Shown: positions 9,215 to 64,000 of the stretch, piece after piece
How positions within the stretch are numbered: position 1 is the stretch's first letter
Layout: the number at the start of each line of letters is the position of its first letter
Assembly (NCBI RefSeq): GCF_001983935.1
Contig: NZ_CP017641.1
Location: 4,154,001 to 4,218,000 of the forward strand
Reading direction: 5' to 3'
DNA from: Fuerstiella marisgermanici
GTDB lineage: Bacteria; Planctomycetota; Planctomycetia; Planctomycetales; Planctomycetaceae
Length of the DNA stretch: 64,000 bases
Program-made: the position numbers and the translations under genes
Notes under the pieces: model-generated
Database searches by the model: none
What the model was told of the DNA's origin: nothing
What the model saw: the letters and a program-made list of their open reading frames with translations, nothing else

Positions 9215-9804
9215 TTGTTCGAGAGATTCCCAGACGGAGCGAAGTCGCGGCGTTTGCACGGAAACGTGCATACATTCCGTGCAGTCTGCGGCTCACATGC
9301 GTATGAAAGGCAATAACAAGTTCACAAGTACCGAGTTCGGCCTGAGAGACAGCAGCTTGGCCTATTGAATCATTGAAGGCGTGCAGCATTTGCAGGTCAA
9401 TTCCATGCTGCCCCAGCCAAAGGTGTAACCCAGCCGGATCTATATTTTGGACTGGGCTGATGCCGTGGTCCATTTGCGTTGACTTTGGATTGTCCCTTCG
9501 CCACGCAAATGATTCACTCGTTGATTGAAGACTTGCCCACCATAACGACACCTCTTCACCGGCGCGCGACAGCTCTAACAATGTGAGGTGGCACCTTACT
9601 CAAGCCTATATGTTCCTTAAGCGAGGATTCAGATGATGCCCAACGGGCGAAAAACCACTCGCTGAGCTGAACGAGCAACCGGTACTGCGGAGTTAGACGC
9701 GCAAGCGTACTTTAACGCGAGCTTCCAATTGAATAAAGACTCGTGACCGGTCTAGAGTCATCGCGCACGTTGCTTGCCATTATAGCGATTTGATGATCTA
9801 CTGG
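9215..9804. other. Intergenic region left of the insertion sequence
   Basis: About 590 bases with no supportable gene. A short hairpin with a GAAA loop (9255-9270, stem TGCACG/CGTGCA) lies 40 bases after the FG-GAP stop and could be the end of that transcript, although no T-tract follows. The minus-strand open frame across 9168-9581 has no recognisable domain and overlaps the FG-GAP gene end. Confidence 0.45.
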
Positions 9805-9814
9805 AGGTCAGAGG
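9805..9814. repeat. Left target-site duplication of the ISAs1-family element
   Basis: The 10-mer AGGTCAGAGG directly precedes the left inverted repeat and recurs exactly at 11106-11115 after the right inverted repeat. Confidence 0.9.
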
Positions 9815-11105
9815 CAGGGCCAGCGCATACTAAGTTGTTTTGCCGGTAAGGATTTGCATCAAATAGTCAATGTTCCATCCGGCCATTCTTCTTTTCATGA
9901 CGTTGCTTTGTTTGCCAGGATGTTTCTTGATGAGGCTGAGTGTGAGTCGTCTGAGCCATGACAAATTGTTCGCGAAGATTCGGTTTCGGACTCGACTCTC
10001 ATCCTCGCGGTAGGTCATGTCGAGACTCCAGTGCAGCGTGTTTTCTATGGCCCAGTGACCACGAACCGTTGTTGCGAACAGCTCGCCTTTGCGACGCAGA
10101 CTGCTGATGTAGTAGCGAACGTCAGAATGATGAATGCCGTCCTGCTCGTACATTCGGATCGCCGTTCCGATGGTCTTGAGTCCGGCCCATTTGTGGCCCA
10201 CGTCAAAATCGACAGGCACGGTCGCCTGATAGTAGATTCTCTGTTCCTGCCGACCGTGTCCCTTCTCTGTTTCTTCATAGCGACTGACGGGACAGCGAGC
10301 GAAGTCATCCTCCAGGTGATCGAGAAAAAACTTCTGCACGACCTCATAGAGTTTCGGTTGGTTGCCTTTCAGGGCTAACACATAGTCTGCATTGCCAGAC
10401 ACGATCTGCTGCGCAATGTTTTTTTGACAACCCGCTGCGTCAATCGTAATGATCGCCTCATCGATATTGATTTCGTTCAGTAATTTCGGGATCGCGGTGA
10501 TCTCGTTCGACTTCTCTTCCGTCGCCACCTGTCCCAGAGAAATCCCCTGATCAGAAGCCCACGCACTCACGATGAACAACGCACCCAGCCCATTCTTTTT
10601 GTCATGTGATCGACGGAGTGCTTTGCCATCAATCGCAATCTGTTTTCTGTAGCCTTCTTTCTGTTCGTCGGAAAGTCCTTCCAGCGATTCAATCCATTGC
10701 ACGAAGCACGCTTGAAAGTCGTTCGGCTTCAGGAGAGAAAGGACGCGCCGGTACGTATCTTTTTTCGGAATGCCATGCGGAAGTGCCAGGTGTTTCTGCA
10801 GGCCATCGGCATTCAGTCGCGCCCATTCCGCAATCGCACTGGGGCCGTCGGCGTTGGCCAGCACTCCGCAAATGGCGATCACAATCACATCACCAAGCAG
10901 ATGCAGACGATTGATGTTGGAACGCGGGTCTTTCAATTGATCAAAGTAATGAACAATGTTTCCTGTCAGCTCCTGGGTGACCGCCAGTTCAACTGTCGAC
11001 ATCTCTTGTCCTCTCCTCGTGAAGTCCGATGTTACGACACGAAAAGACTAACCAATACTCACTTGTCGCGCCAGCCTAAATTGCCCAAAGTGCGCGCTGG
11101 CCCTG
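9815..11105 (-). mobile_element. Complete ISAs1-family insertion sequence
   Basis: A 1291-bp element bounded by inverted repeats: CAGGGCCAGCGC at 9815-9826 and its exact complement at 11094-11105, with partial matching for a few more bases. It is flanked by a perfect 10-bp direct repeat. Length, CAGGGCC-type ends, a 10-bp duplication and a single transposase gene all fit the ISAs1 family. The intact transposase and identical duplications suggest a recent insertion. Before insertion, the left and right flanks would have joined in the intergenic region about 35 bases upstream of the DUF350 start codon. Confidence 0.92.
9830..11002 (-). CDS. ISAs1-family DDE transposase
   Basis: A 390-residue transposase filling the insertion sequence. 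The N-terminal region (H-Y-F-D-Q-L-K-D-P-R) is the DDE_Tnp_1-associated domain. The catalytic core has AIDGKALRRS, then TIDAAGCQKNIA, and a late E in the R-G-H-W-A-I-E-N-x-L-H-W motif, together forming the DDE triad of an RNase H-like transposase. These are characteristic of ISAs1 transposases, and the length is normal. The start at 11002 is supported by an AGGAGAGG site on the minus strand. No frameshift or stop interrupts it, so it should be active. Confidence 0.96.
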   Translation of the reverse strand: MSTVELAVTQELTGNIVHYFDQLKDPRSNINRLHLLGDVIVIAICGVLANADGPSAIAEWARLNADGLQKHLALPHGIPKKDTYRRVLSLLKPNDFQACFVQWIESLEGLSDEQKEGYRKQIAIDGKALRRSHDKKNGLGALFIVSAWASDQGISLGQVATEEKSNEITAIPKLLNEINIDEAIITIDAAGCQKNIAQQIVSGNADYVLALKGNQPKLYEVVQKFFLDHLEDDFARCPVSRYEETEKGHGRQEQRIYYQATVPVDFDVGHKWAGLKTIGTAIRMYEQDGIHHSDVRYYISSLRRKGELFATTVRGHWAIENTLHWSLDMTYREDESRVRNRIFANNLSWLRRLTLSLIKKHPGKQSNVMKRRMAGWNIDYLMQILTGKTT

Positions 11106-58502: not shown

Positions 58503-61500
58503 ATGGCGAGACGTAGTAAACTTTCCGGCACCTTGCTGCCTGTGTTAATCGTCATGCTGACCGTCCCCGCACTCGGCCAGACCGTACGCACCGTGACGGT
58601 TGGAGAAGACGGCAAGCCAGTCGTCGTTGAAACTCCGGCCACGGCTACGCCCTCAGCGGCCAACGCGAAGCCCGGCACTCCCGGGAAGCCGCCGACTGGC
58701 AAGCCTGATTCCGGCAAACCCGACGATGCCAAAAAAGATGGCGACAAGAAGGGTGACGGCAAAGAAGGCGAAGCGGATTCCAAAGTGGTCAAGCGACCAA
58801 TGAAGACCGAAGAACCTGCCGGCCCCATTGCCAAAGAAGTGGAAGTGGAAGATTCCGGCAAGGTCACCTTCAGCCTCAAGGGCCAGCCATGGGAAGCCGT
58901 GCTGCAGTGGCTGGCCGATGTTTCCGAACTGTCCCTCGACTGGCAGGAACTTCCCGGCGACACACTAAACCTGACAACCACGCGCAGCTATACGCTTGAA
59001 GAAGCTCGAGACATGATTAACCGGCACTTGCTGGCTCGCGGCTATTGCATGGTATTGAATGGTGAACTGTTGTCCGTCCTGAAGACCAGCGACATCAAGT
59101 CGTCGCTGGTGCCTCGGGTCAGACCCGAAAATCTTGAAAACCAGATGGATCACACTTTGTGCAAAGTGTCATTCGACCTGAACTGGCTGATCGCGGACGA
59201 AGCGGTTGAGGAACTGGCTCCCATGTTGTCCAGAGCCGGTCGCATCAGCAAACTTAGTCGCACAAATCGCATCGAAGTGATGGACACCGCTGCCAGCCTA
59301 AAAGACATCTACCGCATCTTGCAGTCCGAACAGTCGGACGACGGACAGGAACAACTGGTCCGCACGTTTCGTTTAGAACATCGTCGAGCCAACGAAGTGA
59401 TCGACCTTCTGCGCACGTTGCTGGGTATGGAAAACGAAGGTGGCGGCGGTAGCCGAGGCGGCGGAATGGGGGATACGCGTCAGATCACATCAATGATGCA
59501 GCAGATGCAGCAGCAGTTGCAACGCATGGGAAACAGCGGCAGCAAGGGCGGTGGTGGTGGCGGCAAAGAACCTGTCAAAACGCGGCTGGTACTGAACCAA
59601 CGTGAGAACATGATTCTGGCCCAGGCGGCTCCCGACCAAATGGCCATCATCGAAAAAGCGATTTCACAAATCGATGTGCCGGTGGAAGCATCGAATTCGC
59701 TGCTGCAGAACATCAACAAGATGCGAGTCTACCGAATGGAAACGGTCGATCCGCAAACGCTGGTTGACCTGCTTCAGGAACTGGGCGACATGGGCCCCGG
59801 CACCGTTTTGAAGGTGGACGAAGATAAGAAATCCATCGTCGCTTTTGCGAGCCTGGCCGATCACCTGACGATCAGCACGTTAGTGGAAAAGCTGGATCAA
59901 TCGGGCCGTCAGGTCGAAGTCATTCCGCTGCGACGTCTGGATGCCGAATACGTCGCTGGCACGATTCAGGCACTGATGGCTCCACCGCCGAAAGAAAACC
60001 AGAATTCGCGCTACGGCGGTTTCTACAGCCGCTTTGGCAGTGAACCGCAGAAGGAAGAACCCAAGGAATTCAAAGTCGAACCCGATATCGAAAACAACCG
60101 TATTTTGGTCTATGCCAACAAGGTGGAGATGGGCGAAATTCTTACGCTGCTGCAGAAGCTGGGCGAGATCCCCGATCCGGATGCAGTCGACAACGGAATC
60201 CGTGTGTTCGAAATGGGCCCCGAAGACGACCCACGTGAAGTGATGGAACGCATCAAACAGTTATGGCGACGGAACAACGAACTGCAGATCGACATTCCGA
60301 AAAAGCAACCGGCGACGGACGAAGATGACGCATCAGATTCTGAACCCCAAAAACCACAGCCAGCTGTTGAGCGCAACGAAGCGGTGCGCGTGACTCCAGA
60401 ACGGGTTTCGGCCGATGAGTTTTTCGAAATGCTGTCAGCCACGGATGCGACACCACCGCGACATGCCGTAGCTGGTGAATCGTCCGCACGCCCCGGCAAC
60501 CAGCCAAGCTGGTCACCTCAGGAAAAGTCGATCAAACCACAAAACGTCACGGTGCTAACAGTCGCTCCGGACGAACGAGCGAATGACCGCTCGCGAAGCG
60601 ATAACGACTCCGCCGACCGCACCATGGATCACGGTTCGCCGCTGAAGTTTTCTGTCACACCAGATGGAAACCTAATTGTCAGCAGTCGCGACGCCGCAGC
60701 CTTGGCCGAGATGGAAGATCTGATGAAGCAGCTGGTGCGACCCGCCCCGAAGTACAAAATCTTCTACCTGAAATATGCCACTCCGTCATGGGTGACCATC
60801 AATCTCGAAGAGTACTTTGAAGCGGACGAAGAATCCGGCAGCGGAATCCAATACAGCCCGTTCTACGGCTTCATGCCCTCCACCAGCAACAAAAGCAGCA
60901 AATCGACTTTGGGCAGCCGACGCCAGCCGCAGTTCATTTACGACAACTTCACCAGCAGCATTCTGGTCCGCAATGCCGACCGTCGTCAGCTTCAAACGAT
61001 TGAAGATCTGATCAAAGTTTATGACGTGCCCGAACCTGCCGACACGCGATCTGTGCGAGTCACCAAAATCTTCAAGCTACGAAACGCGAAGGCGGAATCC
61101 GTCGCTCAGGCCGTCAAAGACGTCTTCCGCGACCTGCTTAGTTCCAACGACAAGGCGCTCGAAAAGAACGGCGAGCAGAAAACTCAAACGCGAGTGTATT
61201 CGTACTTTGGAGATAGCGACGAAGATGACGGCGATTCGCCTATCCGCTTCAAAGGCCTACTGTCGATCGGCATCGAACCGTCATCGGACACGCTTGTTGT
61301 GTCATCCACCGCGTCGCTAATGGACACCGTAGGAGCACTGATTGAGGAGCTGGACAAAGCGGCCGATCAGTCATCGTCCGTGCAGGTATTAAAAATCGAT
61401 CCGTCGGTCGACATCGGCCTGCTCCAGGAAAAGCTAACCAAAGCCCTCGGCCCGTCCCCTTCACAACAGCAACAACCCAAAGGCAAAAACGGCCGCCCCC

Positions 61501-61547
61501 CCGTCAACGGCGTCCCCGTCGGAGCTCAGCCGGGGCAGAGTGAGTAG
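58503..61547 (+). CDS. Secretin N-domain repeat protein without visible secretin barrel
   Basis: 1014 residues. A signal peptide (first about 25 residues) and a Pro/Gly/Lys-rich linker (about 35-95) are followed by several secretin-N (NolW-type) modules. Recognisable units include FRLEHRRANEVIDLLRTLLG, VIPLRRLDAEYVAGTIQALM, IFYLKYATPSWVTINLEEYF and IFKLRNAKAESVAQAVKDVF, with Gly-rich and charged linkers between. The C-terminal secretin barrel motif (V-P-x-L-G-x-I-P) is not seen. The tail is Gln/Gly/Pro-rich. It may be a periplasmic ring or adaptor in a type II/IV-like system, or an independent scaffold. It stands alone, divergent from proC. Confidence 0.8.
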   Translation: MARRSKLSGTLLPVLIVMLTVPALGQTVRTVTVGEDGKPVVVETPATATPSAANAKPGTPGKPPTGKPDSGKPDDAKKDGDKKGDGKEGEADSKVVKRPMKTEEPAGPIAKEVEVEDSGKVTFSLKGQPWEAVLQWLADVSELSLDWQELPGDTLNLTTTRSYTLEEARDMINRHLLARGYCMVLNGELLSVLKTSDIKSSLVPRVRPENLENQMDHTLCKVSFDLNWLIADEAVEELAPMLSRAGRISKLSRTNRIEVMDTAASLKDIYRILQSEQSDDGQEQLVRTFRLEHRRANEVIDLLRTLLGMENEGGGGSRGGGMGDTRQITSMMQQMQQQLQRMGNSGSKGGGGGGKEPVKTRLVLNQRENMILAQAAPDQMAIIEKAISQIDVPVEASNSLLQNINKMRVYRMETVDPQTLVDLLQELGDMGPGTVLKVDEDKKSIVAFASLADHLTISTLVEKLDQSGRQVEVIPLRRLDAEYVAGTIQALMAPPPKENQNSRYGGFYSRFGSEPQKEEPKEFKVEPDIENNRILVYANKVEMGEILTLLQKLGEIPDPDAVDNGIRVFEMGPEDDPREVMERIKQLWRRNNELQIDIPKKQPATDEDDASDSEPQKPQPAVERNEAVRVTPERVSADEFFEMLSATDATPPRHAVAGESSARPGNQPSWSPQEKSIKPQNVTVLTVAPDERANDRSRSDNDSADRTMDHGSPLKFSVTPDGNLIVSSRDAAALAEMEDLMKQLVRPAPKYKIFYLKYATPSWVTINLEEYFEADEESGSGIQYSPFYGFMPSTSNKSSKSTLGSRRQPQFIYDNFTSSILVRNADRRQLQTIEDLIKVYDVPEPADTRSVRVTKIFKLRNAKAESVAQAVKDVFRDLLSSNDKALEKNGEQKTQTRVYSYFGDSDEDDGDSPIRFKGLLSIGIEPSSDTLVVSSTASLMDTVGALIEELDKAADQSSSVQVLKIDPSVDIGLLQEKLTKALGPSPSQQQQPKGKNGRPPVNGVPVGAQPGQSE

Positions 61548-61710
61548 GCATGAATTCATGTCAGCTTCAGCGTGCGAGCAACGCCAGAAAAAGTAGTTGC
61601 GTTGACCGTGTACAAGGACCGCCGTACACTGGTAGTAAACGTGGCGTTTCGGACTTATTTGCAGTCAGGCGCTGCGCTGAGTACCTGCATTGCCCAAAGT
61701 CGATTCTTCT

Positions 61711-64000
61711 ATGAAACGCCAAAGCCTGCCAATCGCCGTTTTGCTAATTTGCCTCGCCGGCATCGGCTGGTGGATGTGGCAACCGAACCCGGCCGCAGAT
61801 GTCGAGGATGCTGAGACCGCTGCGAATTTAGCTGGTTCAGGCAATGAGCAATTTGCAGGTCTGGATATTGACAAACAAAAGGCGATCTGGGATTCTGAAC
61901 ACGTCACATTCGAGCTCGAAACCCACTTCGGTCGCAAGCTTGTTGCTGGAATTCAGGACCGTTCAACGGACAGTTTAGCCAGTTTCTTTCGCACAGACTT
62001 TGCGGGAGTAGTGCCGGGGCAGTCCGATCCATCGACGACGAAAAAATCTTCAATTGTCGAGACCACCTACAGTGTTGAAGTGAATGGGGCTGCCGCCGTC
62101 GATTCAGAACGGTTTTCACAGCATCTCATGAAGAGTATTGAGCCAGTCCCAATCGGTGGCAAAGGCCGGTTACGGGTGCTGAAGATTAAACGCGTCGAGG
62201 AAGAAGGACCGACGGATAGCTGGGACCTGGACGTTCTACTTACGTTGAGCGGTATGGACGCGTCTGGCGAGCCGACGACTTATACCTCACATGGTCGCAT
62301 GCAGTGCCGCTTTGCCGATGACGATGAGATCAAGGCCGGGCGAATTGTCAAATCGTGGCGAATCGATTCCGAGTCACTCCGTAAGAGTCAGCAGACTTTG
62401 ATGGAAGAAGTCACGTCGCAGGTCCGCCTGGATCGGCTTGCAATCGAGGACAACTGGACGAATGGCGTGAATGCTGTGCGACAGTATCGCTTTCAGGCAG
62501 CAGTCGAAGACTTCGACGGGGACGGGTTCCTGGACATCGCGGCCGCCACCGCAGAAGGGCAACAGTTTGTCTTGAGATGGGACCCGGAACCTGGACAGTA
62601 TGTAGACGTGACCGAATCGCTGGGCCTGCCGAGTTCCATTTCGACAAACAACCGTGCCTATCTGGCCAGCTGGTTCGACTTCGACAACGATGGCGATCCC
62701 GACCTGCTTTTAGGTGAGTCATTTTTCAGGAACGTTGAAGGCCGTCGCTTCGAACCTTTGGCTGAAAACGGCGGTGCAAAATTCGCGTTCAATCCCATGG
62801 GGTGCGTGGTTGCGGACTACGACGCGGACGGGCTGCTCGATTTGTATGTCCTTTACCAACGTGAAAGAGACGCTGACGCGGTTAATAACGGAAAACCACC
62901 TGCATGGGTTGGGGATGACGATACCGGGGCCGCCAACCAGTTGTGGCGCAATCTCGGCGGTGGAAAGTTTGAGGAAACGGCCAAATCCGCAAATGCCACC
63001 AGTGGAAAACGCCATAGCTTTGCCGCGACATGGCTGCACGCAAACGACGATCACTATCCGGATCTGTACGTCGCAAACGATTTTGCGAGGAATTCACTGC
63101 TGATCAATCGGGGCGACGGAACATTCGACGACGTCACTGATTCCTCCGACGTTGGCGACTTTGCTACCAGCATGGGAGTCGCATCGGGTGACATCAATGG
63201 AGATGGTACGCCTGAGATCTATATTGCAAACATGTATTCGAAAATGGGGCGTCGAATCATCGCGAATGTGTCTGCGGATGATTACCCCGATGGTGTCTAT
63301 GAGCAGCTTGTCGGCTCTTGTGCTGGAAATCGTCTCTATTCGACGACGGGCAATGTGCAGCAGTACCACGAGCTAAGCGAGCAGCTTGGTATCAACGCGG
63401 TTGGCTGGGCCTATGCACCCGCATTCGCAGATTTCGACAGCGATGGATTGCTGGACATTTACGCAACAACCGGTTTCTTAAGTTTCAACCGCACAAAGCC
63501 CGATGGCTGAACATGCCTTTGGAGGGCTGTCGTGTCACAGCCACTTGACCGCACGTGCAGCATCGAACCGCTCGGTGATATCGATTCATCAGCTGGTGAA
63601 TTCTGGACGCACCCGTTCGCAATGCTGCGAAATGGAGACAACCTGAGTGCTTACGAAACGAATTGCTTATTCCTGAATGTTGACGGCAACCAATTTTTGG
63701 ATGCTTCGTTCGCATCCAACGCGAATATCGACGCGGATTCCCGGTCGGTAATGGTAGGGGACTTCGATGGAAACCTGACGCCGGATCTTCTTGTTGGATC
63801 TGTCGGAGGAGGCCCCTTGCGTTTGTTCCTGAATCGGTTCCCTGACGCCAATCACCGTGTAGACTTTCGGTTGCAAGGTGTCGAGAGCAATCGCTCAGCG
63901 ATCGGAGCACGAGTGATTGTCGAAGCCGGAGGCAAACAAATCTATCGCGATCTGTTCGCCGCAAACGGATTTATGGGGCAGAGTCCGGCTCGACTAAACA
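61711..64000 (+). CDS. Exported FG-GAP/ASPIC-UnbV protein with in-frame TGA, predicted selenoprotein (3' end outside window)
   Basis: Starts at the ATG 61711 with a signal-anchor (residues about 5-22). Residues about 265-600 hold FG-GAP/VCBS repeats (A-V-E-D-F-D-G-D-G-F-L-D, S-W-F-D-F-D-N-D-G-D-P-D, ASGDINGDGTPEIYIANM). At residue 600 the frame meets TGA (63508-63510), but the same frame stays open for the remaining 163 codons to the window edge. This part holds another FG-GAP unit (G-D-F-D-G-N-L-T-P-D) and the ASPIC/UnbV domain (RLQGVESNRSAIGARVIVEA). A SECIS-like hairpin follows the TGA. The readthrough product has U600-T-C602 in K-P-D-G-U-T-C-L-W-R. A pseudogene or sequence error is the alternative. 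If TGA were a real stop, the protein would end at 63510. Confidence 0.8.
63508..63542 (+). promoter_or_regulatory. In-frame TGA with bacterial SECIS-like stem-loop
   Basis: TGA at 63508-63510 is followed after 14 nt by a perfect 6-bp stem, GGCTGT (63525-63530) with ACAGCC (63537-63542), enclosing the loop CGTGTC. The distance from TGA to the loop is 20 nt, inside the 16-37 nt window described for bacterial SECIS elements, and the loop has a G in its first two positions as the consensus asks. The hairpin lies in coding sequence, as in other bacteria. Confidence 0.7.

Follow-up and report, generated by a model that had tools for sequence, protein, structure and literature searches.

An in-frame UGA with a conserved downstream hairpin points to a selenocysteine-containing family of FG-GAP/ASPIC proteins in planctomycetes

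The DNA considered here (the window) is a stretch of 64,000 nucleotides from the planctomycete Fuerstiella marisgermanici. The genome of this organism (G000) is one 8.92-Mb contig, on which the window corresponds to C1:4154001-4218000. At its far end lies a gene for a CRTAC1-like protein composed of FG-GAP and ASPIC/UnbV parts (Table 1), whose frame contains a single TGA. The first-pass annotation, made from the letters of the sequence, had described this TGA as the only interruption, followed by 163 open codons and by the expected C-terminal ASPIC/UnbV domain, and these three statements hold. There is no other in-frame stop from the ATG to the window end, and after the 163 codons the frame runs on to a TAA after residue 815, as read in the sequence of locus L009; a TTG at 61690 is possible as an alternative in-frame start. 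The full protein of 815 aa exceeds the Pfam cut-offs for FG-GAP_3 (122.2 bits), for UnbV_ASPIC downstream of the TGA (69.2 bits, cut-off 23.4) and for FG-GAP, and at E <= 0.1 it has no match among the NCBIfam models. The codon falls in a loop in the late part of the beta-propeller region. Given the probable N-terminal signal anchor, the protein is probably exported to the periplasm or to the outside.

Two neighbours frame the gene. Directly upstream (58503-61547, + strand) is encoded a 1014-aa protein resembling secretins of type II/III secretion, with four Secretin_N stretches. Just past the window, a convergent TPR/FG-GAP/ASPIC gene (L009:4206-7205, - strand) stands tail to tail with the TGA-containing gene.

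Table 1. Features of the gene at the end of the window (window positions; Sec, selenocysteine).
Feature	Position	Strand	Basis
Gene of Sec-containing FG-GAP/ASPIC (CRTAC1-like) protein (predicted)	61711..64000, continues past the window to TAA	+	frame reading, Pfam
N-terminal hydrophobic helix, probable signal anchor, sequence MKRQSLPIAVLLICLAGIGWWMW	61711..61780	+	sequence; helix 2-28 of the L013 model
FG-GAP beta-propeller region, DxDxDG repeats	62455..63810, approximate limits	+	Pfam FG-GAP_3; fold match of the L013 model
In-frame TGA, read as Sec (predicted), residue 600 (KPDG-U-TCLWRAVVSQP)	63508..63510	+	same codon across relatives
SECIS-type hairpin, stem GGCTGT/ACAGCC, loop CGTGTC	63525..63542 (arms 63525-63530 and 63537-63542)	+	covariation, synonymous constraint
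Start of ASPIC/UnbV domain, residues 730-796, cut by the window end	63898..64000	+	Pfam UnbV_ASPIC

The TGA is shared by the close relatives of the gene. Six full-length relatives (L011-L016; 45-70% identity), all of them from planctomycete MAGs, were found by scanning contigs of GTDB genomes; in every one the aligned codon is TGA, within the context KPDG-U-TC-[LM]-WRAVV. When 392 genomes of the phylum were searched with a profile, 13 of them yielded 16 copies at E <= 1e-100. The F. marisgermanici genome itself accounts for two of these copies, the second one (C1:3066936-3069260) being 37% identical to the window protein and having a TGA of its own; altogether this genome holds 43 matches at E <= 0.001, and the remaining 41 are more distant FG-GAP/ASPIC stretches without TGA. 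Counting the six relatives of the contig scan together with the 16 copies of the profile search, every one of the 22 close relatives found has TGA at the same codon. Homologues with unrelated residues, named beforehand as a possible refutation, do occur, but on other branches. A copy in G061 that had appeared degraded, from a survey row reading '1 TGA, 1 TAG', was rejected as such: no TAG precedes its TGA, and the ORF simply ends in TAG.

Around the codon, the close-type copies show the motif PDG-U-x-C-x-W, with Cys at position +2 in 21 of the 22; the exception is L126, which reads UAP. The U-x-C spacing emphasized in the first-pass annotation is therefore correct for the window gene (U-T-C) but not universal, all the more so as the more distant type described below has no Cys at +2 in 23 of 24 copies, L191 being the one that does. 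In view of L126 and of the distant type, U-x-C was dropped as a defining motif.

The codon could also be taken at face value, as a stop that ends a 599-residue protein, with the remainder decayed or separately translated. TGA is indeed an ordinary bacterial stop, which terminates the family members L011 and L015, and a second ORF might in theory start from the GTG at 63532. However, the sequence is conserved in one frame on both sides of a TGA that 22 of 22 relatives share, a covarying hairpin follows it and the downstream ASPIC domain lies over its cut-off, which makes a genuine stop very improbable.

The hairpin behind the TGA had been accurately described from the start: its 6-bp stem encloses a GU-containing loop of 6 nt and begins 14 nt after the codon. 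In an alignment of 22 rows the stem is paired in 131 of 132 cells; three of the stem pairs show double changes (9 cells), and the other three never vary. The covariation score, the percentage paired and the count of double-change cells were not matched by any of 500 shuffles of this alignment. Two further measures are weak: 13 of the 500 shuffles matched the number of pairs with double changes, and 453 matched that of further pair types. Shifting the partner by 1-3 columns lowers the pairing to 20-67%. Kinship can push sequences beyond such shuffles, and an independent check on the hairpin is offered by synonymous constraint, measured as the excess of identical codons among identical residues. 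This was scored in 414 windows of six codons each, in an alignment that covers at most 320 codons ahead of the TGA and at most 190 behind it. The highest of the 414 values belongs to codons +4 to +9, over the hairpin, with an excess of 0.43 (mean 0.035, sd 0.059).

Folding of single sequences is not unusual (z -0.11 to -0.64, n=4): of the four sequences, the window and L132 have the stem in their minimum-energy structure, and L092 and L090 do not. A search with Rfam at gathering scores found no match within the window. In the distant type, a fixed 17-nt stretch folds into a stem of 6-7 bp at the same place in 22 of 24 copies, with varied stem sequences; of the two exceptions, L176 forms a stem of 5 bp in a shifted position and L184 one of only 4 bp. 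Wider folds of 39 nt in seven verrucomicrobial copies retain the stem at least partly in four, and it is absent in L162, L177 and L186. The covariation, the synonymous constraint and the varied distant stems indicate that an RNA structure just downstream of the UGA is under selection.

Bacterial selenoproteins, such as FdhA, are made with SelB and a bSECIS hairpin. The window gene has in common with them the UGA, the adjoining hairpin with a GU-containing loop and the SelA/B/C/D proteins and RNA, and differs in its beta-propeller host, which is neither a thioredoxin-fold nor a molybdopterin enzyme, and in the rarity of Cys homologues. The search for selA, selB, selC and selD, proposed together with the original prediction, found all four in the F. 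marisgermanici genome. Matches over the cut-off are given by selA (C1:1590006-1591346, 505.8 bits), selD (C1:1587774-1588730, 263.2 bits) and selB (C1:2822687-2824543, 336.2 bits). The selC gene (C1:1515309-1515400, 79.7 bits) is the one tRNA-Sec match of this genome over the Rfam cut-off and is called by ARAGORN a tRNA-SeC with anticodon tca (UCA). In the phylum sample, SelB is over the cut-off in 234 of 392 genomes. Among the 13 genomes with close-type copies it is found at E <= 1e-87 in 12; the remaining one, G061, has a weak match (2.7e-51) below the cut-off. Of 19 further gene-bearing genomes, 16 have a tRNA-Sec confirmed by ARAGORN, and so does G747. No tRNA-Sec was found among these 19 in G061, G393 (the genome of L015) and G395 (that of L011), which may be incomplete genomes.

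The sel genes also bear on a different kind of recoding, in which suppression or a changed code would put a different amino acid (Trp or Cys) at the UGA. This is a general possibility, to which are opposed the TGA codons that themselves end L011 and L015, the complete sel machinery of the F. marisgermanici genome and the hairpin conserved at synonymous sites beside the UGA; it is given hardly any weight.

The family extends well beyond the close type. With a wider profile (A4, 23 rows, E <= 1e-55, at most three candidates scored per genome), related genes are found in 103 of 392 planctomycete genomes. Among the 150 matches listed, 137, from 85 genomes, contain an in-frame TGA and 13 contain none; one row has three TGAs. 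The site of the TGA was read in 33 of the 137 rows (16 of the close type and 17 distant, L225-L241), and it is the same codon in all 33. The 17 distant planctomycete copies all have TGA there, in the context D-[LTI]-U-S-xx-WR. In a verrucomicrobial sample of 377 genomes, with 31 matches listed at E <= 1e-50, TGA-containing copies belong to two genomes, G398 (four copies) and G747 (three), both with tRNA-Sec, and all seven have the codon at the site; one of them, L162, had already come up in the GTDB contig scan, under the handle L090. The distant copies read thus agree in 24 of 24 cases (17 planctomycete, 7 verrucomicrobial). A sequencing or assembly error in the window gene has a negligible probability, as the same TGA is found in copies from 38 genomes, in four separate searches, and is accompanied by the covarying hairpin.

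The distant type also offers an indication of function. Fourteen of its 24 proteins were scanned, and 13 have a C-terminal match to AhpC-TSA, Redoxin or Thioredoxin at E < 0.001; matches of this thioredoxin fold are over the Pfam cut-off in 8 of the 14, and L162 has none. A CxxC occurs in the C-terminal segment of all 14. The distant copies L191 and L235 are too short for a thioredoxin-type segment, with about 210 residues following Sec, and Pfam finds no thioredoxin-type domain in the two Sec proteins of F. marisgermanici.

Structural information comes from an AlphaFold2 model of the L013 protein, 70% identical to the window protein (pLDDT 80.3, pTM 0.82), which shows an N-terminal helix, an alpha/beta domain, a repeat region and a C-terminal beta domain. 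Its best fold match in the PDB is mouse CRTAC1 (9etn; E 8.4e-24), which is also the best match of the PDB sequence search (E 5.5e-22), where weak integrin matches appear too. CRTAC1 and bacterial FG-GAP/ASPIC-UnbV proteins are alike in combining an FG-GAP beta-propeller with a UnbV_ASPIC domain, although the identity to CRTAC1 is only 17%. On the strength of the model, the window's type is predicted to adopt a beta-propeller fold. Compared with other FG-GAP/ASPIC proteins, the Sec-bearing loop is a feature of the subfamily: at the distant loci L017-L090, 382 of 395 domain hits (several hits per protein) have a gap at the site. In the L013 model Sec opens the helix 591-601, in a block of low pLDDT (58 and 68). 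The model of L090 is poor (pLDDT 60.0; 45 and 53 around Sec), with a poorly modelled thioredoxin-type segment, and again places Sec at the start of a helix. A selenol at the N-terminus of a helix, beside a thioredoxin partner, is a usual layout of thiol oxidoreductases. From the Sec at the helix start and the thioredoxin partner, a secreted, thioredoxin-coupled redox enzyme is proposed, and is considered fairly likely if the protein is a selenoprotein.

The UGA is conserved, the hairpin covaries, the Sec machinery is present and the distant type has thioredoxin-fold fusions. On this basis, a probability of about 0.9 is assigned to the best explanation as a whole, in which the window gene encodes a selenoprotein, most likely with an extracytoplasmic redox role; Sec insertion as such, export, the redox reaction and its substrate are what we infer. 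The selenoprotein reading of the first-pass annotation is strongly supported by the shared TGA, the covarying hairpin and the sel genes. SelB and Sec-tRNA(UCA) would bind the hairpin just 3' of the UGA, leading to the insertion of Sec, and the ribosome would then go on to complete all 815 residues of the CRTAC1-like protein, secreted or anchored in the membrane, with its beta-propeller and ASPIC domain. Sec would be placed in the subfamily-specific propeller loop, at the N-terminus of a predicted helix, and would most likely serve as the catalytic residue for redox chemistry in an extracytoplasmic thiol/selenol oxidoreductase. Recycling of the enzyme would be carried out by thioredoxin-type proteins, fused in the distant type and presumably separate in the window's type, in which the Cys at +2 could serve as the resolving thiol.

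Homologues without TGA carry a variety of residues at the site. In the 13 planctomycete copies these are Glu (4), Ala (3), Arg (3), Asn (2) and Asp (1), and in 11 acidobacterial relatives Ser (5), Ala (4), Gly (1) and Met (1). Verrucomicrobial relatives have Cys in L164 and L165 and Asp in L166 and L175, and the four genomes of these copies gave no tRNA-Sec match. Cys is found in 2 of the 28 non-TGA homologues that are clearly aligned, a count from which L055, L178, L179 (Asp) and L187 (Tyr) were left out for doubtful alignment; 17 of the 24 non-TGA rows of the verrucomicrobial survey end before the site. A lack of Sec machinery was considered as the cause of the Ala, Ser, Gly and Met forms and rejected, tRNA-Sec being present in 8 of the 11 acidobacterial genomes. 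In a tree of 44 rows, with a midpoint root for drawing only and without the distant copies of the A4 survey, the acidobacterial non-Sec proteins group with the Sec copies of G747 (99/94), and this grouping suggests that Sec was lost in the acidobacterial branch. A site devoid of Cys in most non-Sec homologues is odd for a simple redox thiol. The non-Sec homologues may be inactive or have another job.

These residues matter for an alternative role, in which Sec would be a structural residue or a metal or cofactor ligand of a calcium-binding propeller instead of a redox catalyst. Glu, Asp and Asn stand at the site in several non-Sec homologues, the protein has many DxDxDG motifs and the Cys at +2 is not universal, all of which favours this role. 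On the other hand, Ala and Arg are also found there and cannot replace a metal ligand, and the thioredoxin-fold matches (13/14) and the CxxC (14/14) of the scanned distant-type proteins are better suited to redox chemistry; a ligand is accordingly regarded as unlikely. Of the redox or metal role first envisaged, the redox part is thus favoured through the thioredoxin-fold fusions, but for the metal part nothing was found beyond the calcium-type DxDxDG repeats.

As regards known families, Table 1 of PMC13188914 (2026) comprises 119 prokaryotic selenoprotein families and subfamilies. Those sharing U-x-C in it are the thioredoxin-like Sec.2 and the SO_0444 transporter. That table, through which the families of Haft and colleagues were also judged, and the main text of the same paper have no FG-GAP, CRTAC1, ASPIC, propeller or planctomycete entry. 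FG-GAP, CRTAC1, ASPIC and planctomycetes are likewise absent from the accessible portion of the deep-Sep paper (PMC12013277). Sec use in planctomycetes is predicted in PMC4807772, whose main text does not contain FG-GAP, ASPIC or UnbV. At the level of titles and the beginnings of abstracts, a literature search gave no paper on ASPIC/UnbV, CRTAC1, FG-GAP or beta-propeller selenoproteins. When five proteins were scanned with the NCBIfam selenoprotein models, the core of the family was unmatched and the fused thioredoxin tails remained below the cut-off (for example seleno_TsoB, 14.4 of 805 bits). The earlier suggestion of a new selenoprotein family agrees with its absence from the entries of the 119-family table, and the family is far larger than one gene; it is apparently unlisted so far, but absolute priority is not claimed.

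A large selenoprotein family with a beta-propeller and ASPIC host fold, one with no entry among the 119 families, would in this way be added. Because Cys forms are rare, searches based on Sec/Cys pairs would tend to miss it, and this rarity could explain why they did; ordinary annotation would split such genes at the TGA. The broader proposal is that the window gene belongs to a so far unrecognised superfamily of selenoproteins with a beta-propeller, which would occur in at least about a fifth of the sampled Planctomycetota genomes and also in some Verrucomicrobiota, certain genomes having four copies or more. Under this proposal, Sec would be catalytic in a secreted thioredoxin-coupled enzyme and would have been lost mostly to residues other than Cys, its presence or absence marking active as opposed to inactive or repurposed branches. 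Taken jointly, these points are held to be somewhat better than an even bet. The family may rank among the most common selenoprotein families in these phyla and could help explain why many planctomycetes retain the selenocysteine machinery. The thioredoxin-type fusions provide a first testable idea on the role of some of the numerous FG-GAP/ASPIC proteins of these phyla.

Some observations concern the surroundings of these genes. A conserved operon partner for the window's type was sought among the neighbours and rejected, no neighbour being common to all loci. At L013, a convergent TPR gene and an FG-GAP/ASPIC gene occupy the same place as at the window gene. The second Sec gene of F. marisgermanici is directly followed by a TPR gene and then by an FG-GAP/ASPIC gene (L121:8300-11391), with a DUF1559 gene further on, and its TPR neighbour recurs at L128. 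DUF1501 genes are found near L011 and L016. The verrucomicrobial MAG G398 has at least four Sec paralogues, two of which are divergent neighbours on contig C8. At selC of F. marisgermanici (L010, G000:C1:1506000-1524000), the tRNA-Sec is followed at about 9310-10783 by a gene of the phage-integrase family (28.4 bits, cut-off 27.1), and further on by genes for a DUF3854 protein and a resolvase, with an ISL3 transposase about 6.6 kb away on the other side of the tRNA; this looks like a mobile island integrated at selC.
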